27,720 nt of DNA, taken from NCBI GenBank assembly GCA_009602725.1, contig WELB01000215.1:193351-221070 (forward strand), in the 5' to 3' direction. Below, in pieces: positions 1 through 20,225 of this stretch (within the stretch, counting starts at the first letter, position 1; every line of letters starts with the position of its first letter). Under the pieces are notes generated by a model. That model searched no databases. It was not told where the DNA came from and saw only the letters and a program-made list of their open reading frames with translations. The DNA is from Spirogloea muscicola (Eukaryota; Streptophyta; Zygnematophyceae; Spirogloeales; Spirogloeaceae). The position numbers were made by a program, and so were the translations under genes.

Positions 1-402
1 GATCAACTCCTGCCAGCTGCAATCGACATCTTTGGCTGTCTGGGTCCTCGCTTCCACACTCTGCTTCAAAACATTGCCAATCTAGGCTACACTCGACGCG
101 CAGATGTGTTTCCGGCTGAGATGGGCTTGCCAGCTGCATATCTGTTGCTCTTGCGACGTCGAGCTTCGGCCTGTTTGCAGCGTGCTCAGGCTAGTGCCTT
201 GCACCAGAAAGCTGGGCGAGCTCTAGTAGGTGGCAGAAGGGCTCCGTTCCTGGCATCTAGTATTCATGCATCGAGTAGTGACCTTTATGTTTTGACCCGT
301 GGTTATTGAGCGGGTCAATCTGCTGTAGGTTATGTAGATTTTTAGATGTGCTTGCCTTTGTACCTGGCCATTTGGCCTACATTTCTTTCTAATACACGAT
401 CT
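1..402 (+). mobile_element. LINE family A, C-terminal tail plus 3'UTR (cut by window edge)
   Basis: Frame 1 is open from base 1 to the stop at 307-309 and encodes the last ~102 residues of a LINE polyprotein: DQLLPAAIDIFG near the left edge, then FPAEMGLPAAYL, CLQRAQASALHQKAGRAL and the terminal VLTRGY. The same protein segment recurs at 8752-9060, 7585-7742 and, on the minus strand, 2236-2470. After the stop comes the family A 3'UTR (310-402), with a GGCCATTTGGCC core and an end near AATACACG. The N-terminal part lies outside the window, so this may be the end of a longer copy. No catalytic residue is expected in this segment. Confidence 0.75.
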
Positions 403-839: not shown

Positions 840-1040
840 CTTCGCGCTTCCCCTGGCCCCCTTCTCGTACTTTGTTCATTCCTTTTTCTGGCTGGCTTTT
901 CCAGTCCCTATCCTCATTGGTCGCGCACTGTCTTCTTTTTTCTGCTGGAGGGAGATGGTAGCTGTAGCTCTTTGAATTTTGTCCATTCTTTTTTGGCTGG
1001 CTTCTGCCAGCCCCTCTCTTCTATGGGCGAGCTTTTTCCT
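840..1040 (+). repeat. Two LINE-type 3'UTR stem-loop modules
   Basis: Two copies of the family B-type 3'UTR lie in tandem. The first carries GCGCTTCCCCTGGCCCCCTT, TTTGTTCATTC and a degenerate hairpin at ~890-907. The second has GTCCATTC followed by a perfect 7-bp hairpin, GGCTGGC (995-1001), loop TTCT, GCCAGCC (1006-1012), then a GGGCGAGC motif. No coding sequence is attached to either, so they are extreme 5' truncations or relics. Confidence 0.6.
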
Positions 1041-2149: not shown

Positions 2150-2470
2150 TTAAGAGATGGGGAGGCCATGTGTGGCCAAGTACAAAGGCAAGCACATTGG
2201 ACAAATGTACGTCACCTGCTGCTAAGCTGACCCGCTCAGTAACCACGAGTCAGCACAAAGAGGTCGCTAGCTGACGCTCGAATACCGGACGGCAATTGAC
2301 TAGCTCTTGTGCCAGCAGCTAAGGCTCGACCAGCTTTCTGATGCAGAGCATACGCCTGAGCTCGTTGCAGACAGGTTGACACTCGACGTCGCAGAAATGA
2401 CAGATAGGCTGCCGGCATACCCATCTGGGCTGGGAGCATATCCTCGCGTCGTGCATAACCCAGACTCGCT
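2150..2470 (-). mobile_element. LINE family A tail plus 3'UTR, antisense
   Basis: The minus strand encodes the family A C-terminus (LPAQMGMPAAYL, CLQRAQAYALHQKAGRAL, ending FVLTRGY with the stop at 2236-2238), followed leftwards by its 3'UTR (2150-2235). The match extends to about 2470 (ARREDM). It is 5'-truncated, and the tail frame is intact. Compared with the 1-309 copy there are scattered substitutions but no frameshift in this segment. Confidence 0.7.
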
Positions 2471-4454: not shown

Positions 4455-4535
4455 GTATATTAACTGCAGCTTTTGGGCTGGCTTTTCGCAGCCCTTGCCC
4501 ACATTGGGAGTGCCACTTCTTCTTTCCATATCCCT
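4455..4535 (+). repeat. LINE-type 3'UTR stem-loop module
   Basis: GGGCTG (4475-4480) and CAGCCC (4489-4494) form a 6-bp stem with an 8-nt loop, followed by the usual GCCCACATTGGGAGTGCCACTTCTT end. A nearly identical module lies at 5690-5755, suggesting a common recent source. Confidence 0.6.
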
Positions 4536-5624: not shown

Positions 5625-7370
5625 TTGTCAAAAAAATTCGGCAACCCTTTTGGCTCTTTGCACGTTGTCCACTCTTTTTCCGAACCGTTGTCAATTCTTT
5701 TTGGGCTGGCTTTTCGCAGCCCTTGCCCCCATTGGGAGTGCCACTTCTTCGTTTTGGGCTGGCCTTTTTCAGCCGCTACCCTCTGTCTCTCTTCTGTGGG
5801 CGAGCAAATTCACTTTCCGGTCTTATCACAGCCCTTCCCCGTTGGGAGAGCCACTTTCTACCTTCTCTTCCTGGGAGTCCCCATCGGCACGCCAGCCTTC
5901 GTGGAGGGGCAGCTGCGAGCCCGCCTCGCGGAGCACCTTCAGCCCGCGGCCCGGCTCCCCGAGCTGGAGGATATGCAGCTGTCCTTGGCCATGCTGACCA
6001 AGGCCATCGGGCAGCGGCCCCAGTACTTGACGCGGGCCACCCCGCCGTCCCCAGAGGCATTGGCGGCGTACGCGACTTTCGACGCGGGCATGGTGGCGAG
6101 CTTGGCGGCCCTGGTCCGCCACCAGGGCTTCCCCCAGTCGCCAGCCGCTATCCACCAGGCGGCGCTACCCATCAGCCACGGGGGTCTCGGCCTGCGCCCG
6201 CTCGTCCGCTCATGCCGGGCTGCATACCTCGGCAGCTGGGCGCAGACTGCCGCCTCCGTGGCTCAGCGCTTCATGGTCCATGGCCGGCGTGCACTGGAGC
6301 AGGCGGTGGTGGAGGTGGACAAGGGCGCGCTGCCGTTCCAGGTGGCGCTTCGCACCGCCCACCAGGAGCTGCTCGCGGCGCACCCCGACATGGCCGGCCA
6401 GGCGGTCTCCTTTGCGCACCTCGCGCACACCGCTGACCTGCGCGTCCAAGCGCGCTTCGCGGCCGTCGTCGACAAGGCCGCCTACACCACCGCCGTGCTG
6501 CAGCTTCCTGAGGCTGACCTGCGCGGGCGCGCGAGACTACATTCGGCCTCCTCCCCGGGGGCAGCGGCGTGGCTCCAGGCACTCCCCATCACTGACGCCC
6601 TGACCCTCCCAGATGAGGTGTTTCGCACTGCCGTCCACCGGCTCCTGGGGCTGCCGCCTCCATGCCTCCAGGGCGTGCGTCAATGCCAGTGTGGCGAGCG
6701 AGGGGCCAAGCCTGGCGAGCTGGCTGCTCACGTCCTGCGCTGTTCCCATGGCGGCGAGAGGACGGCGGCCCACGACCGCCTCCGGGACGCGATGCACAGC
6801 ATCCTGGTGGAGGCTGGCTTCGCGGTGGCAGCGGAGCACTCCGGCGTCATGCCGCTCCAGGCCAGGGCCGACGGTCTCCACGCTCGTCGCGTCGACCTGG
6901 TGGCCACCCCACAGGCCGGCGGGCCACGTCTGCTTCTGGATGTGGTGACTACCGACGCATTTGACCGCTCCCACCCAGCCCAGTCTGCCACCAAGGCTGG
7001 GTATGCGGTCGCCTGCGCCGCTCGGGCAAAAGAGATCAAGTACGCCGACCATCCACCGGAAGACGAGTTCTTCCCGTTGGCAATTGACATCCATGGGGCA
7101 CTGGGCGCTCGGTGGCTTGAGCTACTTAACCAGCTCGCCCGCCACGCAATCGCCCGTCGCTTCCATGGTGAACCGGTAGACTTTCCTGCAGCCGGGTCGC
7201 TGGCGCAAGTGTATCGCATGCGCTTGGCCGTCTCGCTGCAGAGGTCCATGGCCCGTGCGCTGCACCTTCGTGCCGGGAGAGCCCTCGCTGCTGCCTCTGG
7301 CTCTGTCCAGGGGACCCACTTCCAGGACCCTAGCCTCTCTGATTTGCGGCTGCTTAGCAGGGGTTACTGA
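5625..7370 (+). CDS. LINE polyprotein C-terminus: RT thumb, CCHC knuckle, restriction-like endonuclease (chimeric 581-aa ORF)
   Basis: A single open frame. Residues 1-82 derive from stacked 3'UTR modules and are not LINE protein. From residue 83 (LGVPIG, the end of the RT domain) the sequence is a LINE C-terminus. A thumb region carries LPISHGGLGLRPL (~181-193). C354-x-C356-x12-H369-x3-C373 forms a CCHC knuckle. The endonuclease-like core has E404, R422/D424 (RRVDLV) and D439 (LLLDVV), followed by K457 and K472-Y473. The protein ends LRLLSRGY. CCHC followed by a PD-(D/E)XK nuclease downstream of RT is the layout of LINE clades such as R2, CRE, NeSL and Dualen; the nuclease nicks target DNA to prime reverse transcription. 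The RT catalytic domain is missing, so this is a 5'-truncated copy that cannot move on its own. The frame is uninterrupted, suggesting recent insertion. The start at 5625 is the first ATG in frame and is probably not biologically meaningful. Confidence 0.8.
   Translation: MSKKFGNPFGSLHVVHSFSEPLSILFGLAFRSPCPHWECHFFVLGWPFSAATLCLSSVGEQIHFPVLSQPFPVGRATFYLLFLGVPIGTPAFVEGQLRARLAEHLQPAARLPELEDMQLSLAMLTKAIGQRPQYLTRATPPSPEALAAYATFDAGMVASLAALVRHQGFPQSPAAIHQAALPISHGGLGLRPLVRSCRAAYLGSWAQTAASVAQRFMVHGRRALEQAVVEVDKGALPFQVALRTAHQELLAAHPDMAGQAVSFAHLAHTADLRVQARFAAVVDKAAYTTAVLQLPEADLRGRARLHSASSPGAAAWLQALPITDALTLPDEVFRTAVHRLLGLPPPCLQGVRQCQCGERGAKPGELAAHVLRCSHGGERTAAHDRLRDAMHSILVEAGFAVAAEHSGVMPLQARADGLHARRVDLVATPQAGGPRLLLDVVTTDAFDRSHPAQSATKAGYAVACAARAKEIKYADHPPEDEFFPLAIDIHGALGARWLELLNQLARHAIARRFHGEPVDFPAAGSLAQVYRMRLAVSLQRSMARALHLRAGRALAAASGSVQGTHFQDPSLSDLRLLSRGY
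5690..5865 (+). repeat. Tandem LINE-type 3'UTR stem-loop modules
   Basis: Three modules follow one another. The first has hairpin arms GGGCTG (5703-5708) and CAGCCC (5717-5722) and ends GGGAGTGCCACTTCTT. The second has GGCTG (5757-5761) and CAGCC (5770-5774) and ends GTGGGCGAGC. The third is a partial that ends GTTGGGAGAGCCACTTTCT. The 5' truncation point of the next LINE copy follows immediately at ~5866. The open frame that continues into that copy therefore has a non-coding-derived N-terminus. Confidence 0.6.
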
Positions 7371-7515
7371 GTAATGTGTAGCTGCTTTCTTTCTTTGTGT
7401 GCTTTGGTTTCTTAGCGCTTCCTCTGGCTTCCTCTGGCCCCCTTCTCGTTCTTTGTTCATTCTTTTTTGGGCTGGCTTGTCCAGCCCCTATCCTCAATGG
7501 GCGAGCCCTTTCTTC
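7371..7515 (+). repeat. Family B LINE 3'UTR with 7-bp terminal stem-loop
   Basis: This is the 3'UTR of the copy ending at 7370. It contains TAGCTGCTTTCTTTCTTTG, a duplicated CTTCCTCTGG block, CCCCCTTCTCG, TTTGTTCATTC, then GGGCTGG (7469-7475), loop CTTGT, CCAGCCC (7481-7487), and ends CAATGGGCGAGCCCTTTCTT. The same subfamily-specific CTTCCTCTGG duplication occurs in the copy at 12166-12452. That makes these two the most closely related copies in the window. Confidence 0.75.
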
Positions 7516-7584
7516 TCTTTCCACCTGGCACCTCGGTTATCGGTGGAACAACCGTCAGGCCGTCCCTTGTTTTCCCTACAAAAT

Positions 7585-7833
7585 TTTCGGCCTGTTTGCA
7601 GCATGCTCAGGCTCGTGCCTTGCACCAGAAAGCTGGGCAAGCTCTAGTTGGTGGCAGAAGAAAAAGCAGAAGGGCTCCGTTTCTGGCATCTAATATTCAT
7701 GCATCGATTAGTGACCTTCATGTTTTGACCCGTGGTTCTTGAGCCGGTCAATCTGCTGTAGGTTATGTAGATCTTTAGATGTGCTTGCCTTGTACTTGGC
7801 CATTTGGCCTACATTTGTTTCTTGTACACGAAA
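7585..7833 (+). mobile_element. LINE family A tail plus 3'UTR with flanking near-duplication
   Basis: The frame ending at the stop 7740-7742 reads FSACLQHAQARALHQKAGQALVGG and ends HVLTRGS. The family A 3'UTR follows (7743-7833) with TTGGCCATTTGGCCTACAT. The flanks look like an imperfect target-site duplication: TTCCCTACAAAAT (7572-7584) on the left and TTCCCTAAAAT (7834-7844) on the right, differing by a CA indel. The 5' truncation falls inside the CLQ-AQA segment. The terminal Tyr has become Ser. Confidence 0.65.
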
Positions 7834-8174: not shown

Positions 8175-9160
8175 GAAGGCCGCAGAAGGTTGAGGAGGCT
8201 GCCAGAGATTCAAAACAATCCAAGGAGCTTGGCAAGACTTACTTCTCTGGCCACACCTGGTGCCACTGACTGGATCACCTCTCCCCCCGTCGCCAACGCC
8301 TTCAGCATCAGATCCGAGGCCTTTCGGACATCGCTTCAACTCTTCCTCGGCCTCCCACCTAACTGCCTGATTGGGGTGCGCCAGTGCGAGTGCGGCTTCC
8401 GTGCAGAGGGTGCTGTGCTCGCCACTCACATGCTGAGATGCCCCACTGGACCAGAGTTGTGGGCATTCACAACCTCCTTCGCGATGCCCTGGCGGGCTTG
8501 ATGCGCGACGCCGGCTACCGTGCGGTCGTGGAAGTCAACAACATCATGCCTATCACCACGGACGCCCGGGGACGTCATCATCGCCGCACACTTGACTTTG
8601 TGGGCGTGCAACCTGGTGGAGGACCACGGGCCCTGATCGACGTTGTTGTTACGGAGGCATATAAAGGCCCAGCATCGACACACATCGCTAGGCATGCAGT
8701 GGGCGGTGCAGAACAAAGAAAACTGCGGCACTACTCTGATACCCCCAATGCGATCAGCTCCTGCCAGCGGCAATCGACATCTTTGGCGGTCTGGGTCCTC
8801 GTTTCCACACTCTCCTTCAAGACATTGCCAACCTAGGCTACAATCGACGTGCAGATGTGTTTCCGGCTGAGATGGGCTTGCCAGCTGCATATCTGTCGCT
8901 CTTGCGACGACGAGTTTCGGCCTGTTTGCAGCGTGCTCAGGCTAGTGCCTTGCACCAGAAAGCTGGGCGAGCTCTAGTTGGTGGCAGCAGGGCTCCGTTT
9001 CTGGCACCTAGTATTCATGCATAGATTAGTGACCTTTATGTTTTGACCCGTGCTTATTGAGCGGGTCAATCTGCTGTAGGTCGTGTAGATCTTTGGATGT
9101 GCTTGCCTTTGTACTTGGCCATTTAGCCTACTTTAGTTTCTAATACACGAAATTCCTCTG
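8175..9160 (+). mobile_element. LINE family A copy: thumb end, CCHC knuckle, endonuclease, tail, 3'UTR (frameshifted)
   Basis: The copy runs through three frames. First come RLPEIQNNPRSLARL and FLGLPPNCLIGVRQCECG with the CCHC knuckle (C-E-C-x12-H-M-L-R-C). After a shift near 8455 come NLLRDALAGLMRDAGY, NIMPITTDARGR, RRTLDFV and ALIDVVVTEAY. After a second shift near 8745 come DQLLPAAIDIFGGLGPRF through to VLTRAY with the stop at 9058-9060; a stop replaces a codon just before ISDLYV. The 3'UTR (9061-9160) is the family A type. This is the longest family A copy here and shows that family A also ends in CCHC plus a restriction-like nuclease. It is a pseudogene: two frameshifts and one nonsense change. 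Confidence 0.75.
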
Positions 9161-9284: not shown

Positions 9285-9450
9285 GTAAGTTCCTTTGGGC
9301 TGCAGCCTCTGGCTTTGCGAGCTATTCCGACTTGCATCTTCTGACTAGAGGTTACTGAGCGTCCCCTTGTTGATGTCTTAGTCCTTAGCACCTCGACTCC
9401 TTCAGACCTTGTCCATTCCTTTGGGCTGGCCCCTCCCAGCCACCAGTTTA
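9285..9450 (+). mobile_element. Short LINE tail (SDLHLLTRGY type) plus 3'UTR stem-loop
   Basis: GCAGCCTCTGGCTTTGCGAG leads into SDLHLLTRGY and a TGA at ~9356. A 3'UTR follows with TTCAGACCTTGTCCATTCC and a 6-bp hairpin, GGCTGG (9424-9429) and CCAGCC (9436-9441). It is 5'-truncated to about 70 bp of coding sequence. The tail wording differs from families A-C, so it may be a fourth subfamily. Confidence 0.55.
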
Positions 9451-9659: not shown

Positions 9660-9875
9660 CTGCTTTGTTTCTTTGCATCGCCGGGCTGGTCGCGCCCTTG
9701 CAGCAGCCTCTGGCTTGCGCAGCGGGGTTGCTCTTCCTCCCCTCAGCTCATCCGACTTTCCACTGCTAACACGGGGGAATTGAGGGCGCCCTGTCTGCCT
9801 AGCCTTTGGCTCCGTCATGAACACCTGCATGGCTGGCACTTTACAGCCGACTCTTTACTCTCAACGGGGGCAAGG
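9660..9875 (+). mobile_element. LINE family C tail plus 3'UTR
   Basis: The sequence begins inside the tail at CATCGCCGGGCTGGTCGCGC, continues through CAGCCTCTGGCTTGCGCAGC and decayed LLLTRGY codons to a TGA at 9780-9782. The 3'UTR of family C follows: GGGCGCCCTGTCTGCCTAGC, CCGTCATGAACACCTG, and a GGCTGGCACTTTACAGCC hairpin. The end is decayed. Other family C copies lie at 10980, 17605 and, inverted, at 12625 and 12743. Confidence 0.6.
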
Positions 9876-9950: not shown

Positions 9951-9957
9951 CCTAAAG

Positions 9958-10053
9958 AGCTGGTCAATCTGCTGTAATTTATGTAGATCTTTAAATGTGC
10001 TTGCCTTTGTACCTGGCCATTTGGCCTACATCTGTTTCTAATACACGGTTTTC
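9958..10053 (+). mobile_element. 96-bp family A 3'UTR-only insertion with 7-bp flanking duplication
   Basis: Only the 3'UTR of family A is present: TGGTCAATCTGCTG, ATGTGCTTGCCTTTGTACC, TGGCCATTTGGCC, ending ATACACGGTTTTC. CCTAAAG flanks it on both sides (9951-9957 and 10054-10060). The interpretation is an extremely 5'-truncated retrotransposition event into an antisense LINE 3'UTR. The right copy of the flank is followed by a second CCTAAAG, so the exact boundary could shift by a few bases. Confidence 0.55.
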
Positions 10054-10184
10054 CCTAAAGGCCTAAAGGGGCCTCTCACAGCCACCAGTCAATCTGGAAG
10101 CGCAATTGTCATCTCTATAAAGAGCCCTACTTGCTGACGTCTTAGAGGATAGTAGTATCTTGCTCTCATCACTACTTTTTGTTC

Positions 10185-10504: not shown

Positions 10505-10845
10505 GCTTGCCCATTGAGAATAGGGGCTGGAAAAACCAGCCCGAAAAAGAATGAACAGAATACGAGAAGGGGGCCAGGGGAAGCGCTAAGAAACAGAAAC
10601 AAAGCAGCTACACTCAGTAACCTCTGCTAAGCAGCCGCAGGTCGGAGATGCTAGGCTCGTTGAAGTGGGTCCCCTGGCCAGAGCCAGGGGCCTACAAGCG
10701 TTGAGCAGCTACAAAGGAGAAGAAAGTGCTCGCCAATTGAGAATAGGGGCTGGAACAACCAGCCCGAAAAAGAATGAACAGAGTACGAGAAGGGGGCCAG
10801 GGGAAGCGCTAAGAAACAAAGGGGCCTGAAGATGCAAAGAGCCAA
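10505..10845 (-). mobile_element. Two antisense family B copies in tandem (tail plus 3'UTR; 3'UTR only)
   Basis: Read on minus, the left copy has tail codons from about 10706 (PGTHFNEPSISDLRLL) to the stop near 10617, then the 3'UTR with perfect arms at 10524-10530 and 10536-10542 (loop AAAAA on plus). The right copy (10720-10845) is 3'UTR only, with arms at 10747-10753 and 10759-10765. On the minus strand the two are head-to-tail. The C-rich/CT tract begins right at the 5' end of the second. Confidence 0.65.
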
Positions 10846-10850
10846 TTGAC

Positions 10851-10868
10851 CCCCCCCCCNNNNCCCCC

Positions 10869-10930
<62 letters not shown>

Positions 10931-10979: not shown

Positions 10980-11418
10980 GAAGAAGGTGCACAAGTACAA
11001 GGACCACCCGGCGGGTGATACCTTTTACCCCCGGGCCATGGACATCCATGGGTATTACGGGGATCGGTGGTCCTCGTTACTTTCGCTGCTGGCCTCTCAA
11101 GCTGACCAGCGGCGCCCGGAACAGGGTGCAGCCCATCCCGGTGGCTCGGTGCCTTTGGGTCTTGTTTCCTGCTACCGAATGCGCTTATCTATGTGCCTAC
11201 AGCGGTCCCAGGCGAAGGCTTTGCATCGCCGGGCTGGTCGCGCCCTTGCAGCAGCCTCTGGCTTGCAGCGGGGTTGCTCTTCCTCCCCTCAGCTCATCTG
11301 ACTTCCTACTGCTGACACGGGGGTATTGAGAGCGCCCTGTCTGCCTAGCCTTTGGCTCCATCATGAACACCTGTATGCATCTGGCTGGCAATTTACAGCC
11401 GATTCTTTAACATCAGCA
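10980..11418 (+). mobile_element. LINE family C tail plus 3'UTR
   Basis: The frame from ~10981 reads KKVHKYKDHPAGDTFYPRAM, DIHGYYGDRWSSLL, CYRMRLSMCLQRSQAKAL and HRRAGRALAAASG. It aligns with IKYADHPPEDEFFPLAIDIHG and the later segments of the 5866-7370 copy. A 2-nt deletion near 11268 shifts the frame, after which DFLLLTRGY ends at a TGA at 11327-11329. The 3'UTR (11330-11418) has the Family C signature and the GGCTGGCAATTTACAGCC hairpin. It runs directly into a (CT)n tract. A pseudogene, and the longest family C copy here. Confidence 0.7.
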
Positions 11419-11419
11419 G

Positions 11420-11420
<1 letters not shown>

Positions 11421-11517
<97 letters not shown>

Positions 11518-11522
11518 CCTCC
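11421..11522 (+). repeat. (CT)n microsatellite after a LINE 3' end
   Basis: About 95 bases of (CT)n with one CAGC interruption start at the last bases of the family C 3'UTR (CATCAGCAGC) and end in CTCCCTCCCTCCCCCCC. The position suggests either a pyrimidine-rich tail of the element or a microsatellite used as insertion site. Confidence 0.8.
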
Positions 11523-11564
11523 CCCCCAGCCCCTAGCCAGGCCAGGGTCCGTGTGTTAGAAAGA

Positions 11565-11637
11565 GATGTAGGCCAAATGGCCAGGTACAAAGGCAAGCAC
11601 ATCTACAGATCTACATAACCTACAGCAGATTGTAGCA
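11565..11637 (-). repeat. Antisense family A 3'UTR, solo
   Basis: The plus strand reads GATGTAGGCCAAATGGCCAG then AGGCAAGCACATCTACAGAT and AACCTACAGCAGATTG, the reverse complement of the family A 3'UTR. No coding part remains. Confidence 0.65.
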
Positions 11638-11640
11638 GCC

Positions 11641-11800
11641 AGGGGACCCGCTACCAGGAGACTAGTTTCTCCGACCTGCGGCTGCTTAGTAGGAGAAGAA
11701 AGAAAGTGCTCGCCCATTGAGGATAGGGGCTGGAAAAAGAAGAAAGAAGAAGGGCTGGAAAAGCCAGCCCAAAAAGGATGAACAGTAAGGGTTACTGAGT
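11641..11800 (+). mobile_element. Family B tail interrupted by an antisense 3'UTR insertion
   Basis: GGGACCCGCTACCAGGAGAC through CTGCGGCTGCTTAGTAGG (to ~11693) is a family B tail, and GGGTTACTGAG resumes at ~11789. Between them lies an antisense family B 3'UTR with perfect arms GGGCTGG (11752-11758) and CCAGCCC (11764-11770) and a decayed extra half-arm upstream. Similar words flank it: AGTAGG (11688-11693) and AGTAAGG (11784-11790), a possible target-site duplication. The interruption falls two codons before the stop of the host tail. Confidence 0.55.
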
Positions 11801-11810
11801 GTTAGGTAGC

Positions 11811-12030
11811 TACTTGCTGCTGCCTCAGGCTCTGGCCAGGGGACCCACTTCCAGGAGCCTAGCATCTCTGATCTGCGGCTGCTTAGCAGGGTTGTCTGAG
11901 TGATTCGTAGCTGCTTAGTTTCTCTGTGTGCTTGTTTTTTGTGTTTCCCCTGGCCCCCTTCTCGTACTTTCTTCATTCTTTTTTGGGCTGGCTTTTCCAG
12001 CCCCTATCCTCAATGGGCGAGCACTTCCTG
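11811..12030 (+). mobile_element. Family B LINE tail plus 3'UTR
   Basis: Starts at CTGCTGCCTCAGGCTCTGG inside the tail and reads GTHFQEPSISDLRLLS, with the terminal codons altered (GGTTGTCTGAG in place of GGTTACTGAG). The 3'UTR has GTTTCCCCTGGCCCCC, TTCTTCATTC, arms GGGCTGG (11985-11991) and CCAGCCC (11997-12003) with loop CTTTT, then CAATGGGCGAGCACTTCC. Confidence 0.7.
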
Positions 12031-12165: not shown

Positions 12166-12455
12166 TTTCGTCTCGCTGCAGAGGTCCATGGCCCGGGCGC
12201 TGCACCTTCGTGCCGGCAGAGCCCTCGCTGCTGCCTCTGGCTCTGGCCAGGGGACCCACTTCCAGGACCCTAGCCTCTCTGATTTGCGGCTGCTTAGCAG
12301 GGGTTACTGAGTGATTTGTAGCTGCTTTCTTTCTTTGTCTGCTTTGGTTTCTTAGCGCTTCCTCTGGCTTCCTCTGGCCCCCTTCTCGTTCTTTGTTCAT
12401 TCTTTTTTGGGCTGGCTTGTCCAGCCCCTATCCTCAATGGGCGAGCCCTTTCTTC
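12166..12455 (+). mobile_element. Family B LINE tail plus 3'UTR, same subfamily as the 5866-7515 copy
   Basis: Starts within the tail (CTGCAGAGGTCCATGGCCC) and reads through RALHLRAGRALAAASG to LRLLSRGY with its stop at 12308-12310. The 3'UTR carries the CTTCCTCTGG duplication seen at 7371-7515, with arms GGGCTGG (12409-12415) and CCAGCCC (12421-12427). The near identity with the 7218-7515 segment suggests a shared recent source. Confidence 0.75.
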
Positions 12456-12615
12456 CAGGAGCCCAGCATCTCTGATCTGCGGCTGCTTAGCAGGGGTTAC
12501 TGAGTGTCTCGTAGCAGCTTTGTTTCTGTTACTTAGCGCTTCCCCTGGCCCCCTTCTCGTACTCTGTTCATTCTTTTTCGGGCTGGTTGTTCCAGCCCCT
12601 ATTCACAGCCCCATT
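12456..12615 (+). mobile_element. Family B LINE tail stub plus 3'UTR
   Basis: CCAGGAGCCCAGCATCTCTG begins right after the CCCTTTCTT end of the previous 3'UTR. The tail runs to LRLLSRGY and a TGA at ~12503. Its 3'UTR has arms GGGCTGG (12580-12586) and CCAGCCC (12592-12598), loop TTGTT. This is the last unit of the plus-strand head-to-tail array 11811-12615. Confidence 0.7.
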
Positions 12616-12624
12616 GAAGAAAAG

Positions 12625-12735
12625 GAAGCGGCTGCTGATATTAAAGAATCGGCTGTAAATTGCCAGCCAGATGCATACAGGTGTTCATGACGGAGCCAAA
12701 GGCTTAGGCAGACAGGGCGCCCTCGACACCCCCGT
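12625..12735 (-). mobile_element. Antisense family C 3'UTR with tail stub
   Basis: Read on minus: ACACGGGGGTGTCGAG (altered TRGY plus stop codons), GGCGCCCTGTCTGCCTAAGC, TCATGAACACCTGTATGC, a GGCTGGCAATTTACAGCC hairpin, then AATATCAGCAGCCGCTTCC. Only ~15 bp of coding tail remains. It is the target of the 12743-12810 insertion. Confidence 0.65.
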
Positions 12736-12742
12736 GTCAATC

Positions 12743-12810
12743 AAAAAAAAAAAGAAAGCGGCTGCTGATATGAAAGAATCGGCTGTGAAATGCCAGCCAG
12801 ATGCATACAG
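12743..12810 (-). mobile_element. 68-bp family C 3' end insertion with 7-bp target-site duplication and poly-T tail
   Basis: GTCAATC flanks the segment exactly on both sides (12736-12742 and 12811-12817). On its sense (minus) strand it reads CTGTATGCATCTGGCTGGC, then CACAGCC, CATATCAGCAGCCGCTTTC and a run of 11 T. The interpretation is an extremely truncated target-primed reverse transcription product. It is the cleanest definition of the family C 3' terminus here, with a pyrimidine rather than poly-A tail. Confidence 0.65.
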
Positions 12811-12935: not shown

Positions 12936-15703
12936 ATGCCGCCTCGCCTGCGGATGATCGCCACGCTGAGTGCGGCAATGCAGGCACGGACGCCGCTGTC
13001 GCCGCCGAGGCATCGGCAGCGCCGCAGCGCCCTGACGCGCCTCGCTTGCGCCCTAGTGGTGGTTGGTGCAGTCTATGCCACAGCCGCTCACTGCCGTGGC
13101 AAAGGCGGGTCCAGCGGCGCTGGCGGCGGCAGGCGCCAGTTTGATGGGGCATCGCGTAAGCTTGCGACGAGCTCAGCACGGAACAACGATGCTGCGCTCT
13201 CGGCAGAGGCTGCGGCGACGTGGGGCGGGTGGAAGCTGGAGAGCCCGTTCGGATTCCAGCAGCAGCTGTGGGTCATGGCACCGGCTTGCTTCGACGGGAG
13301 CGGGCTAGCGGAGCTCGCAGTCGCCAGCTTCGTCTCACCGTCTCCGAAAGCTGCCGCTTCTCCCAGCATGGTGCCACTACTGCCATCAGAATCACTGGAA
13401 GAAATGCTTCGCCTGCGCCGCGCACGCCTTGAGACGGGCTGGCACTTCAAGCGCAAGCCCGCTGGCTGGCTCGCCCGTGGCGCTGCCAACAACCGCATCG
13501 ACTGGCGCCCCGGCACACGTTCCTGCTTCAACTCCCCCGGTCCACCACCAACGTTGCGCACTTAGTACAATGTGCTAATAGTCTTCTGCTTCTCGCTGCT
13601 GCCACTGGCCCGGCTCTTCGCCTGCCTGTACACAGGTGTGCTCCCTGCGCCCTGCCTTCTGATCCCAAATTTGAAAAAGGCAACATCTGGCCGGAGCTTG
13701 CTTAGGCACGGAGGGAGCACATACATACATACATGCCTTGAGTGCGTCCATATCCATGTCAATAATTCAAGGTCCAACTATCCCGCCTCTACCAGTCTAG
13801 TGGGGCCGCTTGCTCAACCACATGAATGGCTTGCGCCATTACAGGCCTGCCAGATGCTGTTGGAGTCTGCATGGTAGAGAACGCCGGTATTCATGGTAGC
13901 TCTTATCGTGTTGATTGGCAATCGGAAGCAGGAAGAGTTCCAGCTTCCTTCAGTGTCCCTATTAAGCATCAGCACCAATCTGTCAAATAGGTGAATCTAC
14001 TTCTGCTGCTCTCTCTCTCTCTTCCTGCCTAGCTTGCCAGATGCTCATCCAGTGCTGCTGTGCTCAGGGTGTTGCTTCAGAGAAGCCAAAAGTTGATGGA
14101 GCGGTTGGAAGTGCACGGGCCCAATGGTTTCCATGCTGTGGTGCTGAGAGAGGCCCTGAGAGCTGCATTGGAACAGCAATTAGGCCCTGACTGGCCTGCC
14201 TTCGAAGCTGCGGAGCTCCTGCAAGATTCTCCACTGGCTGGTGACTCTGTCCAATTTGAGTCTTCGTTGCACAATGCAAGTGACAAGTACCCAGTGTGCT
14301 TTGAGCAGGCCATCCTTCCTGGCCTTCTCAAGGTAAGACCTAATGTCTTTGTCTGATATACCTTGCTGATGCAATTTCTTGACGTCCTCTTACTTGAAGA
14401 TGGCTTACTTGCAGAGACTGTTAAGAATGGTACTTTCTCCTGAAGTCTTTCAATGGGTTTTCTTTCATTGTGTTCCAACCTGCTGATGGCCTTGAGATGG
14501 AACAATTGCTTCAATCAAATAGACAGGCCCCTTGCTACCATGGACCTGTCTGAGGCATGACATCTCATTATTGCCCCCCTGCTATAAATTTTTCACTCCC
14601 TTGGCAGATGGCGTATCACGAGGGCTGCTGACCTTGTGTCGACCTCGTCCATGACGGCAGGGAACTGTCTATCCAGGCGACATTAGTGTCGCCGAAGCAT
14701 TCCAACAGAGGCTTCACAAAGCCTTGGAGCTAAGCAGCACCTCTTCTGCGACTGCTACAAAAATTGTGCAACTCACCTCAGCTGCCTCTTTGCAACATTC
14801 AACAATGCTTCAACTCCTTTATGTGCAAAGAGTCGGCACAAGGCGCGTGTTTACAGACACGAGCGAGAAGGCCTTCCAAGCGATGATCCGAAATTTAGGG
14901 CCAAGTGTACAAGTTCGTACTGTGACGTTTGAATTTATGAGCTTCAAGGAGCAATTCATAGCATGTCAGAAAGCTCATGTGGTGGTCGCAATACATGGAG
15001 CAAATCTGCTCAACCCTACATTGTTTTCACGTGCTGGTACAGCAATCGTGGAGATTGCGCCATACAAGGTAAAGTATTATGCAGTATGTAGTGGTCACTC
15101 TGTATTGACAGCGTCACGCTGTTGCTTGTTGCAGCAAAGCCAATGAAAGCCCATCATGTCCGATGCTAGATGCTGTGTAAAGTGCAGATGGAGAAGGTTG
15201 CAATGCACTCCAAGTTCTTGCTGGGCATCATGACAAACATCAATTTCCGCTGACCCAAACAGATACAGCATCACATGTACGAGGTGCAGGCCATTGCGAC
15301 AGGGCTTGCTTACTATGGCCATCATTGCAGTCAGGGAACAATGCATGTGGAGGATAGAAAATGGGAACACCTCAGTCGCAAGGAATGTGCGATGGACGCT
15401 AGCTGCAAGGCCTTCCACACGCATGGGCGGAATGTCAGCCTGAGCGATGATGATGTCGTGCAACTTCAGGAATTATTGTCTGCAGCTTGCAGCTCTGCCA
15501 GACAAAGATTCGACTTGATTAGTGCAGATGACACCCTTCGGAAGGCTGTCAAGGAAAGCAATGCTTCAGAACCAGAGTTGAATTGCTTTCCGACGCCTTT
15601 TTTTTATGCATCCTCTCCGATGGATTTAAGGCATCGGTATAATTGGATGAGCTCAGGCGGACTACAGCCTCCGAGAACTTGCATTCTCAAAGCAATTGCA
15701 TAG
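12936..15703 (+). CDS. Family GT61 (DUF563) glycosyltransferase, type II Golgi membrane protein, at least four exons
   Basis: The product should transfer a sugar from a nucleotide donor in the Golgi lumen; acceptor and sugar are not predictable. Exon 1 starts at ATG 12936 (context GCCGATGCC) and has a basic N-terminus, then the signal anchor LACALVVVGAVYATAA (~residues 35-50). Its frame closes at 13565, so the donor lies before that; I could not fix it. Exon 2 (about 14041-14332) ends CFEQAILPGLLK at donor AAG|GTAAGA. Exon 3 (14661-15068) carries the GT61 core: LLYVQRVGTRRVFTD, VVVAIHGANLLNPTLFS with the HGA motif, and AIVEIAPYK before GTAAAG. Exon 4 (15263-15703) continues in phase with IQHHMYEVQAIATGLAYY and runs to the stop. 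Exons 2-3 and 3-4 join in phase 0. The total is roughly 580 residues, normal for the family. LINE debris ends about 100 bp upstream, and no clear promoter is seen. Confidence 0.8.
13718..13733 (+). repeat. (ACAT)n microsatellite in the presumed GT61 intron
   Basis: Four ATAC/ACAT units lie between exon 1 and exon 2 of the GT61 gene. A short (CT)n run at ~14010-14022 forms the pyrimidine tract ahead of the exon 2 acceptor TTGCCAG. Confidence 0.7.
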
Positions 15704-17124: not shown

Positions 17125-17200
17125 GAAGGAAATGCGCGCCCATTGAGAAGAGGGGCTGGCAGAGGCCAGCCCTAAGAAAATGGACAAATCCAAAGAGCCA
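17125..17200 (-). repeat. Antisense 3'UTR module with a perfect 8-bp hairpin
   Basis: GGGCTGGC (17153-17160), loop AGAG, GCCAGCCC (17165-17172) is the longest perfect GGGCTGG-type stem in the window. The CGCCCATTGAGAAGA border and the ATGGACAAATCCAAAGAG part of the module are present in reverse orientation. Confidence 0.6.
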
Positions 17201-17289: not shown

Positions 17290-17568
17290 GCACAAAGAAA
17301 GTGCTCGCCCATTGAGGACAGGGGCTGGGAAAGCCAGCCCAAAAAAGAATGAACAGAGTACGAGAAGGGGTCCAGGGGAAGCGCTAAGAATAACAAGCAC
17401 ACGAAGAAACAAGGCAGCTACGAATCACTCAGTAACCCCTGCTAAGCAGCCGCAGATCAGAGATGCTAGGCTCCTGGAAGTGGGTCCCCTGGCCAGAGCC
17501 AGAGGCAGCAGCGAGGGCTCTGCCGGCACGAAGGTGCAGCGCGCGGGCCATAGACCTCTGCAGCGGAG
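17290..17568 (-). mobile_element. Antisense family B LINE tail plus 3'UTR
   Basis: On minus the tail runs from CTGCAGAGGTCTATGGCCC (~17568) through GTHFQEPSISDLRLLSRGY to the stop near 17430. The 3'UTR (17290-17427) has arms at 17322-17328 and 17334-17340 and a GGGCGAGCACTTTCTTTGTG end. It meets the plus-strand family C tail at ~17605 through a 40-bp bridge containing CCCCGGGAGAGTGA, a string repeated at ~17847. Confidence 0.65.
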
Positions 17569-17604: not shown

Positions 17605-17825
17605 CCAGGCGATTGCTTTGCATCGCCGGGCTGGTCGCGCCCTTGCAGCAGCCTCTGGTTTGCGCAGCGGGGTTGCTCTTCCTCCCCTCAGCTCATCTGA
17701 CTTCCTACTGCTGACTCGGGGGTATTGAGGGCGCCCTGTCTGCCTAGCCTTTGGCTCCGTCATGAACACCTGTATGCATCTGGCTGGCAGTTTACAGCCG
17801 ATTTTTTAATATCAGCAGCCGCTTG
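17605..17825 (+). mobile_element. LINE family C tail plus 3'UTR
   Basis: Reads ALHRRAGRALAAASGLRSG and DFLLLTRGY to a TGA at 17726-17728, with no frameshift in this part. The 3'UTR has GGGCGCCCTGTCTGCCTAGC, CATGAACACCTGTATGC, GGCTGGCAGTTTACAGCC and the end AATATCAGCAGCCGCTT. It is the best preserved family C terminus and can serve as reference for the others. Confidence 0.7.
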
Positions 17826-17849: not shown

Positions 17850-19150
17850 CGGGAGAGTGAGGGCGTCATTGATAGGGAGGGCCTGAAGCCACGCCGCTGC
17901 CCCCGGGTAGGAGGCCGACTAAAGTCTCGCGCGCCCGCGCAAGTCGGCCTCGGGGAGCTGCAGCACGGCGGTGGTGCAGGCGGCCTAATCGACCACGGCC
18001 GCGAAGCGCGCTTGGACGCGCAGGTCAATGGTGTGTGCGAGGTGCGCAAAGGAGATCGCCTGGCCTGCCAGGTCCGGGTGCGCCGCGAGCAGCTCCTGGT
18101 GGGCGGAGCGAAGCGACACCTGGAATGGCAGCGCGCCCATGTCGACCTCCACCATCGCCTGCTCCAGTGCACGCCTGCCGTGGACCATGAAGCGCTGGGC
18201 CACGGAAGCGGCAGTCTGCGCCCAGCTGCCGAGGTATGCAGCCCGGCAAGAACGGGCGAGCGGGCGCAGGCCGAGACCACCGTGGCTGACGGGTAGCGCC
18301 GCCTGGTGGATAGCGGCTGGCGACTGGAGGAGGCACTGGTGTCGGACCAGGGCCGCCAAGCTCGCCACCATGCCTGCGTCAAAATCCGCGGAAGCCGCCA
18401 ACGCCCCTGGGGACGGCGGAGTGGCCCGAGTCAAGCACTGGGGCCGCTGCCCAATGGCCTTGGTCGACATGGCCAACGACAGCTGCATATCGTCCAGCTC
18501 GGGAAGCCGGGACGCAGGCTGAAGATGCTCCGCAAGGTGGACTCGCAGCTGCCCCTTCACGAAGGACGGCGCGCCAATGGGGACCCCAACAGGGTGAAGC
18601 CATCTGCTGGAGTCTGGCAGCCGGTGGGTAGCGTCAGGGTGGCTGGGAGGCCGCAGGGAGACCAAGCCGCGCACTTCGACGCCCGGGTGGACAGGCCGAG
18701 GGTGGCCAGCTGCAGCTCAAAGGTGACGAAGGCTGCCGCCACGTCTTCCGGAGGGCCGACTATGGTGGTGTCGTCCGCGAAGGTGGGGAGTAGGACTCCT
18801 GGGTGTGCCGCTGCGGTAGCCTGCAGAGCCCGGTGGTGAGCGAGCGCAAAGTAGAAGCCGGCGAGGGGGTCCCCTTGCCGCGTGCCCGCTTGGGACTGCA
18901 GAACATCCACTTGATCACCCCCTGTCCGCCAGAGGAGGTCGCTGGGCTGACGGTACCCCAAGCGGGAAAAGGGTACCAGGGAGGGGAAGGATGCACGGAG
19001 CTCCTCCGCAATACTGGCGCGCTCCACAGTGTTGAAGGCATTCTTCACGCAACGACCAGCACCAGCCACTCCGGGTGCTGGTCCAAGGTCGCACGAACCC
19101 CGTGGACGACGGCCTCGCCCCCTCGCCCGTCAAGATTCTTATTACAAAGA
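17850..19150 (-). pseudogene. LINE reverse transcriptase palm and thumb, antisense, inactivated
   Basis: The only RT palm in the window. On minus, motif A reads KNAFNTVERASI (~19045-19010), then QAGTRQGDPLAGFYFALAHH (~18890-18835), the catalytic FADD (18781-18770) and a GFTLLG stretch (~18610). After a 1-nt shift near 18595 come VPIGAPSFVKGQL and the thumb, with LPVSHGGLGLRPL, AHQELLAAHPDLAGQA and RFAAVVD. Three lesions are visible. A 1-nt loss near 19051 removes the motif A Asp codon (the expected GTTGACGTG is GTTGCGTG). The second is the shift near 18595. The third is a nonsense change, TAG for AAG, at 17985-17987. Homology continues at DNA level to ~17850, just short of the CCHC region. 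It overlaps in content with the 5866-7370 copy and shows what lies upstream in that family. Confidence 0.8.
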
Positions 19151-19287: not shown

Positions 19288-19372
19288 TCTGTAGGTGATG
19301 TGCGTGTTGGATGTGCCTGCCTTTGTACTCGGCCATTTGGCATTTGTTTGTTTCACATACACGAAAATCTCC
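19288..19372 (+). repeat. Family A LINE 3'UTR, solo
   Basis: GTGCCTGCCTTTGTACTCGG, CCATTTGGCATTTG and CATACACGAAAATCTCC match the family A 3'UTR with several changes; the right GGCC of the core is lost (GGCA). There is no coding tail upstream. Confidence 0.6.
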
Positions 19373-19404
19373 TTTCTGAGGGTTTGGTCTTGTACATTTC
19401 TTTG

Positions 19405-19620
19405 GGCTCCATTCTTCCCGGCGGCTACTAACTCGAGGTTACGACAAGTACGAAGTCATCCTACATGGTCCTTGCTGGGTCCTGTCTTTCAGCGCTTACA
19501 GCGCTATTTTGGCCATTTCGTACCTGGTCAAGCTTTATCGGGCTGGCATTTTACAGCCCTCGCCCCCCTTTAGGGAGAGCTTTAGGGAGAGCCACTTTCG
19601 GGAGAGCCACTTACTCACAG
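19405..19620 (+). mobile_element. LINE tail stub plus 3'UTR stem-loop
   Basis: CGGCGGCTACTAACTCGAGG keeps a decayed LLTRGY. The 3'UTR has CATCCTACATGGTCCTTGC, CAGCGCTTACAGCGC, and hairpin arms GGGCTG (19540-19545) and CAGCCC (19554-19559). Its GGGAGAGC end is amplified three times, twice as TTTAGGGAGAGC and once as CGGGAGAGCC (19567-19614). The leader resembles that at 10311-10390. Confidence 0.5.
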
Positions 19621-19689: not shown

Positions 19690-19815
19690 CTGTGTTCCTT
19701 TGTGTGCTTGTTTTTCTTAGCGCTTCCCCTGGCCCCCTTCTCGTACTCTGTCCATTCTTTTTTGGGCTGGCTTTCCAGCCCCTATCCTCAATGGGCGAGC
19801 ACTTTCTTCTCTCAC
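19690..19815 (+). repeat. Family B 3'UTR with terminal stem-loop
   Basis: TTAGCGCTTCCCCTGGCCCC, TCTGTCCATTC, arms GGGCTGG (19764-19770) and CCAGCCC (19775-19781), a 4-nt loop CTTT, then TCAATGGGCGAGCACTTTC. There is no coding tail upstream. Confidence 0.65.
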
Positions 19816-19859: not shown

Positions 19860-20225
19860 CAGCTCTACCAATTAAAGGTAGTGGCTGTGAAAGGCCAGCC
19901 TAAAAAGAATGAACAAGGTCCAAAGAGCCCAAAGGCGCCTAAACCACACAGCCATGCAGCGGATGGGAGCTTAGTAAGCTAAAGGAGCTCTGGTTCACTG
20001 GAGCTGGCCTTGCACATTGTAAGGCCAGCCCTAAAGCCAGGCCTGATCAAGAAAGTGCTCGCCCAGCCAGAAGAGGAGCTGGCAAAACTATTACCAAGTG
20101 ACCATCCTTCATGGTACTTGCCTATTTGTGTGTTTTAGCGCTTTCCGCCCCCTGCGGACCTTGTCCTTTTGTTCCGGGCTGGCTTTCACAGCCCTTGGAC
20201 GAGCTTACTATCTACACATTACCCC
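19860..20225. repeat. Cluster of hairpin-type 3'UTR modules, both strands
   Basis: 19883-19900 is an antisense hairpin (GGCTG, CAGCC) followed by AAAAAGAATGAACAAGGTCC. 20003-20029 is a perfect 9-bp stem, GCTGGCCTT, 9-nt loop, AAGGCCAGC. 20100-20210 is a plus-strand module with CATCCTTCATGGTACTTGCC, TTTTAGCGCTTTCCGCCCCC, GCGGACCTTGTCC and arms GGGCTG (20176-20181) and CAGCCC (20189-20194). Confidence 0.55.

Follow-up and report, generated by a model that had tools for sequence, protein, structure and literature searches.

What is the short GC-rich hairpin that recurs near the 3' ends of the LINEs at this locus, and do the elements depend on it? The window, by which we mean the whole stretch of 27,720 nt analyzed, holds many copies of it in both orientations, and the hairpin is real. 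In our reading it probably forms the central part of a 3' template tag with which a large superfamily of apparently RLE-type non-LTR retrotransposons enters target-primed reverse transcription. Eleven sites had been listed in the first-pass annotation. All 11 are GC-rich inverted repeats of 7–8 bp with a loop of 4–5 nt, and the loop does vary while the arms stay fixed. According to that annotation the hairpin invariably follows a LINE stop codon and directly precedes a GGGCGAGC or GGGAGAGC end, and neither rule held throughout: a LINE coding match ends within 130 nt upstream at six of the 11 sites and is absent at the other five, which look like 5'-truncated tails, while an exact GGGCGAGC or GGGAGAGC follows within 25 nt at only six. 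The separate version ascribed to family C, GGCTGGC-...-TTACAGCC (TTTCACAGCC at 12780), was found at 9830, 11382, 12650 (reverse strand), 12780 (reverse strand) and 17781. The hairpins of the window and the type tail are as follows.

995..1012, forward strand: family B hairpin GGCTGGC-TTCT-GCCAGCC, preceded by a decayed family A tail (hairpin 890-906)
4475..4494, forward strand: hairpin of tail family F2, GGGCTG-GCTTTTCG-CAGCCC
5703..5722, forward strand: hairpin of tail family F2
7437..7516, forward strand: 3' tail of a family A LINE, with a pyrimidine-rich side carrying a TTTGTTCATTC box, the hairpin, a CTATCCTC linker, a AATGGGCGAGC box and a terminal CCTTTCTTCT
7469..7487, forward strand: type hairpin GGGCTGG-CTTGT-CCAGCCC, 98 nt past the stop codon (7368-7370) and ~29 nt upstream of the common 3' end near 7516
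9424..9441, forward strand: hairpin of tail family F4, GGCTGG-CCCCTC-CCAGCC, absent from the minimum-energy fold of the tail
9830..9849, forward strand: family C (F6) hairpin
10524..10542, reverse strand: family A hairpin after a LINE C-terminus (10691-10617)
10747..10765, reverse strand: family A hairpin without a coding match just upstream
11382-11401 (forward), 12650-12669 (reverse), 12780-12799 (reverse) and 17781-17800 (forward): hairpins similar to family C (F6)
11752..11770, reverse strand: family A hairpin of a rearranged tail, in which TTCTTC... and another 3' arm come after it
11985..12003, forward strand: family A hairpin after a LINE C-terminus (11813-11890)
12409..12427, forward strand: family A hairpin, a 98% copy of the 7469 tail
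12580..12598, forward strand: family A hairpin, 3' box missing
17153..17172, reverse strand: family B-like hairpin of 8 bp, GGGCTGGC-CTCT-GCCAGCCC
17322..17340, reverse strand: family A hairpin after a LINE C-terminus (17563-17432)
19540..19559, forward strand: F2-like hairpin GGGCTG-GCATTTTA-CAGCCC
19764..19781, forward strand: family A hairpin with a 4-nt loop, without a coding match just upstream
20176..20194, forward strand: hairpin of another tail family, to which the fold adds an outer helix CUUGUCC/GGACGAG

Such a density is far above chance. The core GGCTGG-N2..7-CAGCC gave 39 matches in the window (both strands, palindromes counted twice) against a mean of 0.6 in 200 Markov-1 shuffles. 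The window and 20 fetched loci together comprise 225,740 letters, including 25,052 N, and matched the core 243 times, a density which is not that of the genome as the loci were fetched around a family A tail, and seven permuted arms gave 0, 1, 3, 0, 4, 3 and 0 matches; loci L001-L008 were left out of the counts, being the same places as the window and L009-L015. Genome-wide searches covered the 153 Mb assembly (471 contigs). ATTC followed by GGGCTGG-N2..8-CAGCCC is present in 10,373 copies (reversed control 0). Patterns built on the flanks gave matches too, namely TTCATTCTTTTT..CAATGGGCGAGC with no hairpin required (2602 matches, reversed control 0), TTGTCCATTC..GAGC (3760 matches, reversed control 8) and GGAC.TTGTC.ATTC..GGAAGAGC (61 matches, reversed control 0). 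A few antisense matches remain among the rows of the ATTC-anchored count and of the genome-wide counts for pairs 3 and 6 given below.

The elements that carry the hairpin show the features of LINEs: a reverse transcriptase (RVT_1), 5'-truncated inserts, a common 3' end and target-site duplications. Their coding parts in the window are the following.

5625..7370, forward strand: truncated LINE ORF, C-terminal part, ending ...LRLLSRGY* (stop codon 7368-7370); no Pfam match
~6684-6743, forward strand: CCHC-like motif in that ORF
~6894-6941, forward strand: RLE-like D-X14-D motif in that ORF
17850..19069, reverse strand: LINE fragment encoding a reverse transcriptase (18557-19069 matches RVT_1, E 1.9e-8)

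RVT_1 was also found by Pfam in the fetched locus L025 (E 4.3e-11). Among the aligned window proteins, a CxC-x12-H-x3-C arrangement was seen by eye in the first, and D-X14-D in three, a fourth keeping the first D alone. We take the CCHC-like and D-X14-D motifs for those of a restriction-like endonuclease (RLE) domain, the motifs having been placed by eye, and the C-terminal domain would then be such an enzyme; a Pfam search of this region matched no family. N-terminally, a weak C2H2 match (PF00096, E 0.096) lies in L010, where frames are broken, and a search of five protein pieces from L010 and L025, the N-terminal ones broken, gave no match to an APE domain. The top PDB sequence match of the reverse transcriptase was an R2 protein (E 0.63, not significant), followed by a bacterial group II intron-type reverse transcriptase (E 0.73). 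By their look, the elements are RLE-type. Amid the repeats, a host-like gene fragment of glycosyltransferase family 61 (PF04577, E 2.2e-9) lies at 14724-15146 on the forward strand. Beside LINE tails there are four N bases (10860-10863) and long (CT)n runs (10879-10930 and 11421-11521), which may mark an assembly gap or a repeat expansion.

The 3' end of family A was located from its copies. Forty-seven other matches to positions 7400-7560 stop at query positions 111-130, mostly 117-125 (7516-7524), and this clustering places the end of the element near 7516. In the 41 family A ends listed, the downstream sequence varies from copy to copy and holds no A-run, and five of the 41 copies have directly abutting target-site duplications of 7–13 bp; copy-specific flanks and duplications together indicate that these ends were retrotransposed. 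A hairpin close to a 3' end that lacks poly(A) is a feature of stringent-type elements, and the putative tail tag would be roughly 75–80 nt in size. Very short 5'-truncated tails stand head to tail in L012, L018, L023 and at 5690-5800 of the window, some of them starting right before the hairpin at TTCTTTTT, and they recall the nested 3'-end arrays of Zepp (PMC8226300, in part). Three family A inserts were seen by eye to lie within the hairpin of another tail (L028:4863-5046, L013:3384-5031 and L023:1944-2018), the first flanked by the 13-bp duplication TTTCTTTTGGGCT, and a nested insertion preference for tails is possible. One might suppose that the palindrome is itself a preferred DNA target, kept since new copies land there. 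The three inserts out of the 41 listed (L028, L013, L023; by eye) would fit, but most of the listed insertions lie elsewhere, a target need not sit in the element's own tail, and the sample had been chosen around tails; we give this explanation practically no credence.

A second simple explanation is that the hairpin is merely inherited by young copies of one family, with no selection acting on it. Many of the window matches are indeed copies of the 7469 tail, 76–100% alike. However, the hairpin is common to 46 differently flanked tail clusters (chosen by hairpin), including family C with its ~48% C-terminal identity to A. These clusters come from 159 hairpin tails, which fell into 50 loose clusters; four seemingly chance matches were removed ahead of the tests of hairpin energy and outer helix described below, leaving 46. 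Of 66 tblastn matches that reach the C-terminus, 50 have a hairpin within 250 nt downstream, although some of these hairpins belong to nested or neighboring tails and some are in reverse orientation. Ten family ends, chosen by hairpin presence, share only 56–95% pairwise C-terminal identity, and their 11 core arm letters are identical; their 3' UTR identities were set aside, since free gaps inflate them. Family C (11015-11424 and 17605-17824 in the window) keeps TGGCTGGC-N-ACAGCCG, while its flanking boxes differ from those of A. Judged from these alignments, the hairpin is kept across elements whose coding ends diverge by tens of percent. At L021:3659-4066 (reverse strand), a coding end 88% like that of family A is followed by a family B tail 46 nt past the last codon, which looks like a tail swap between families. 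In L029, L030 and L031, on different contigs, one tail is flanked left and right by sequence that is the same in all three as far as compared, as in a larger duplicated unit.

Rows chosen by their flanks show how well the arms are retained. With at most one mismatch allowed in 12 arm letters, 50 of 61 rows of the GGAC.TTGTC set and 73 of 94 rows of the TTGTCCATTC set (six overlapping rows of 100 having been removed) pass, as do 0% of shuffled bodies; a threshold of at most four mismatches is weak, being passed by 61/61 and 93/94 rows and also by 37% and 36% of shuffled bodies. Mean conservation in the 61- and 94-row sets (averaged by hand) is 0.93 and 0.91 for the arms, which were placed by best consensus match and are thereby somewhat favored, against 0.80 and 0.85 for the loop edges, 0.76 and 0.86 for the four bases before the arm and 0.67 and 0.68 for the six after the hairpin. 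This excess over linker and loop edges in flank-chosen rows is a further point against passive inheritance by young copies, which we regard as very improbable.

The first-pass annotation had named covariation and slower arm decay as the marks of a selected RNA structure. The arms are kept better than linker and loop edges; covariation was nearly absent. In 47 family representatives, each picked for a hairpin with no more than one mismatch, the observed covariation score is equalled in 81 of 500 shuffles, three of the six pairs are invariant and no compensatory core-stem change across families was seen. The stem hardly varies and the covariation test is for that reason nearly uninformative; its outcome is compatible with a selected hairpin, the stem of which may be kept letter for letter. 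More can be learned from the variants of individual pairs, counted genome-wide for pairs 3, 4 and 6. At pair 4, U·G occurs 667 times (U-A is rare, one row among those listed) vs. 72 C·A. At pair 6, G·U occurs 432 times vs. 103 rows with A then C or U (about 96 of them A·C), and A-U is in no clear excess (seven among the matches listed vs. 4.0 expected by independence). The U·G form of pair 4 and the G·U form of pair 6 both run to hundreds of copies, mostly of one tail type, with pairing kept, and the double form was seen in 4/93 rows. At pair 3, G·U exceeds A·C (95 vs. 61, binomial p 0.008), a p-value that is optimistic because copies share descent. Compensated A-U at this pair was found in five copies vs. 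0.56 expected, three of which are one duplicated unit and two another family; the excess is significant by copies (Fisher p 0.0004), not by lineages (~2; p 0.11). The three arm substitutions with repeated copies all keep pairing, for which the chance is 1 in 8, and a fourth, CAGCTC, consists of two unrelated singles. Single transitions in the diverse set are evenly divided (seven keep pairing, six break it), and the outermost pair is repeatedly mismatched (of 93 rows, 18 have G·A and 9 have U·C). Counting copies exaggerates the support for pairing, again because copies share descent. Two expanded subfamilies retain pairing via G·U, and there is rare A-U compensation in few lineages.

These counts bear on a third explanation, in which the arms are two sequence boxes, read single-stranded or as protein sites on DNA, and the inverted repeat is incidental with no selection on RNA pairing. 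The core arm letters are near-invariant in sequence, beyond what pairing demands, and the flanking boxes, which have no proven pairing, are conserved too. Nevertheless, exactly complementary boxes a few nt apart are odd for linear motifs, both arm variants with hundreds of copies stay paired by G·U, and at pair 3 palindromic contexts predict equality of G·U and A·C rather than the 95 vs. 61 seen, with the optimistic p already mentioned. We consider two unpaired boxes unlikely.

A second LINE clade in the window, with about 33–40% C-terminal identity, bears on the same point. Its parts are listed here, the hairpin coordinates having been converted by hand except for 7798-7809.

~1-399, 2173-2500, 7586-7831, 8752-9150, 9957-10056, 11550-11639 and 19289-19373: pieces of the second LINE clade
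366..377, forward strand: GGCC-ATTT-GGCC hairpin in a second-clade tail
7798-7809 (forward), 10015-10026 (forward), 11571-11582 (reverse) and 2164-2177 (reverse): further GGCC hairpins of this clade
9117-9128 and 19331-19342, both forward strand: GGCC hairpins of this clade with one arm mismatch

The hairpin had been attributed to all LINE families in the window, which is too broad, since the tail proper to this clade lacks the GGCTGG hairpin and has GGCC-N-GGCC, or a one-mismatch form of it, instead. Its ends read TGCTTGCCTTTGTAC-TTGGCC-loop-GGCC..ACACGA or similar, with loops ATTT, ACACAT, ACACA, ACTCA, GCTCA, GTTT, ATT and TT. Twenty-seven tails were found by their upstream box, six of them in the window, where a seventh (7798-7809) escaped the box search through a deletion. 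An exact GGCC-N2..8-GGCC is present in 17/27 tails vs. 0.07% of shuffles, and the remaining 10 have no more than one mismatch in either arm, a lax standard that 13% of shuffles also reach. The second-clade coding ends in L021 and L028 are followed first by their own box (42 nt), and the GGCTGG hairpins at 156 and 220 nt are those of a neighboring tail. As far as the tails themselves tell, the GGCC hairpin indicates that a hairpin near the end is common to both clades and its arm letters are not. A clade that keeps the hairpin in other letters also speaks against two linear boxes. The GGCTGG and GGCC hairpins may be of shared descent. The CGA of the ACACGA-like box of the second clade may correspond to the CGA in GGGCGAGC.

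Folding gave a mixed picture. Eight window stretches were folded, including the family A tail in antisense. The top scores were z = -4.9 (978-1040) and -3.7 (20157-20215), three stretches did not stand out from their shuffles (z -0.55, -1.2 and +0.1), and the best fold of the F4 tail is without the hairpin. The hairpin alone has a median of -10.6 kcal/mol over the 46 clusters and -9.7 in antisense, and with energies so similar folding does not tell the strand. An outer helix (UUUGUCCAUU with AAUGGGCGAG) is predicted for families A, B, F3 and the 20176 type. It was rejected as a general feature: cognate flanks pair no better than swapped ones (7.21 vs. 7.30 of 10 paired, 4608/5000 swaps at least as good; -4.54 vs. 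-4.56 kcal/mol, 5318/10000 swaps at least as good), and in a wider version 1335/5000 swaps were at least as good. This missing cognate advantage is a point in favor of the arms being sequence boxes. A second small downstream hairpin (CTACC/GGTAG, CCAG/CTGG), noticed by eye, was inconsistent over the 61 flank-chosen rows and was also dropped.

Could the hairpin instead form or stabilize the RNA 3' end, in the manner of histone mRNA, producing a poly(A)-free end without being a site for the reverse transcriptase? The inserts do end without poly(A), and the F4 form, a hairpin followed by ACCA, resembles the histone stem-loop. Yet no Rfam family reached threshold in the window or in five loci, and the element ends ~29 nt past the hairpin with a conserved box of its own; a role in 3'-end formation is thus distinctly improbable. 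With looser Rfam cut-offs the family A tail still had no match (E up to 1), and one F4 tail had a single snoRNA match at chance level (E up to 10). A tRNA search of the window found none, and a SINE or tRNA origin was rejected on this ground and for want of an Rfam match at threshold. A transcription terminator was also rejected, as the U-run precedes the hairpin in the sequence.

We therefore return to the 3' template tag. That a hairpin of this kind is recognized by the reverse transcriptase of an endonuclease-type LINE had been proposed from the eel and zebrafish elements, and it remains the best reading of a hairpin with kept arms ~29 nt from a common, poly(A)-free end; the pattern of conservation, however, is unlike that of ZfL2. 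In the mechanism we propose, a GGGCUG/CAGCCC stem in the element RNA, flanked in most families by a UUGUCCAUUC-like upstream box and a GGGCGAGC/GGAAGAGC-like downstream box, would be bound by the element's own reverse transcriptase. Binding would place the RNA 3' end, ~29 nt downstream, on the nicked target, and target-primed reverse transcription would then start there, a role in initiation that the position of the hairpin suggests. A fixed stem with a variable loop suggests that base pairs of the stem or letters of its arms are read, and the enzyme may well read the stem itself, although a signal carried by sequence alone would give nearly the same picture. Tentatively, one can go further to a shared, swappable and letter-fixed stem tag, in which the reverse transcriptase reads the stem and not the loop, dozens of families are cross-copied and the sister clade has switched its stem; we regard this extension as possible but rather doubtful.

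Hairpins in LINE tails have been described from several lineages. UnaL2, ZfL2-1 and ZfL2-2 are APE-type, and the monocot L1 lineage belongs to the APE-type L1 clade, whereas the elements presented here are RLE-type by look. UnaL2, ZfL2-1 and ZfL2-2 (L2 clade) likewise have a short hairpin near the 3' end, needed by the LINE protein, and ZfL2 proteins bind their own hairpin mainly through the loop, with stems that are partly swappable (PMC4176376, in part). In ZfL2 the loop decides specificity, while in the present elements the letters of the stem are fixed and those of the loop vary. The monocot L1 lineage and its SINEs (LINE1-1_ZM, ZmSINE2/3) provide a case from a plant-lineage LINE tail, where a hairpin with a variable stem and the conserved loop UCU is followed by CGAG (PMC3747384), to be compared with GGGCGAGC of the family A tails. 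In that lineage changes in the stem are compensated and it is the loop that stays constant, opposite to the fixed stem and variable loop found here.

Among RLE-carrying elements, R2 has a 3' UTR core (P1, J1/2, P2) that likewise combines a stem and a single-stranded junction in a compact tag; in R2Bm, NTE-1 binds a stem of the 3' UTR together with a junction, and 43 nt are enough for the tag (PMC10499050, in part). From one R2 element to another the stems differ in size as well as base composition, and models of the 248-nt 3' UTR contain at least 11 of them (PMC10499050, in part), in contrast to one short, letter-fixed stem within ~80 nt here. R2 targets rDNA, and the 41 family A ends showed no fixed target. 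In green algae, LINEs of the RandI/Dualen type carry an RLE, and SINEs share their tails (PMC3747384, PMC4640811, in part); the elements described here look RLE-like, and RandI ends in (ATT)n or (CTATTT)n repeats (PMC3747384, in part) as opposed to CTTTCTTCT. Dualen/RandI have both APE and RLE (PMC4640811, in part), whereas no APE was found in the broken N-terminal pieces of L010 and L025. In the open-access literature we found no paper combining restriction-like endonuclease, green algae and non-LTR retrotransposon, and no title describing a GGCTGG tail among the matches listed, which is weak evidence of novelty in both cases. The choice that a LINE enzyme makes of its own RNA is directly testable in few systems only. 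A tag with one near-invariant stem, found in dozens of tail types that differ naturally in loop and flanks, and with a different stem in a sister clade, would be a ready panel for studying template specificity, and such a panel could yield a small tag for RNA-templated insertion, for which the R2 tag of 43 nt now serves as the example (PMC10499050, in part). Compared with these systems, the hairpin tails of this locus belong to a familiar class of signal but are unusually uniform.
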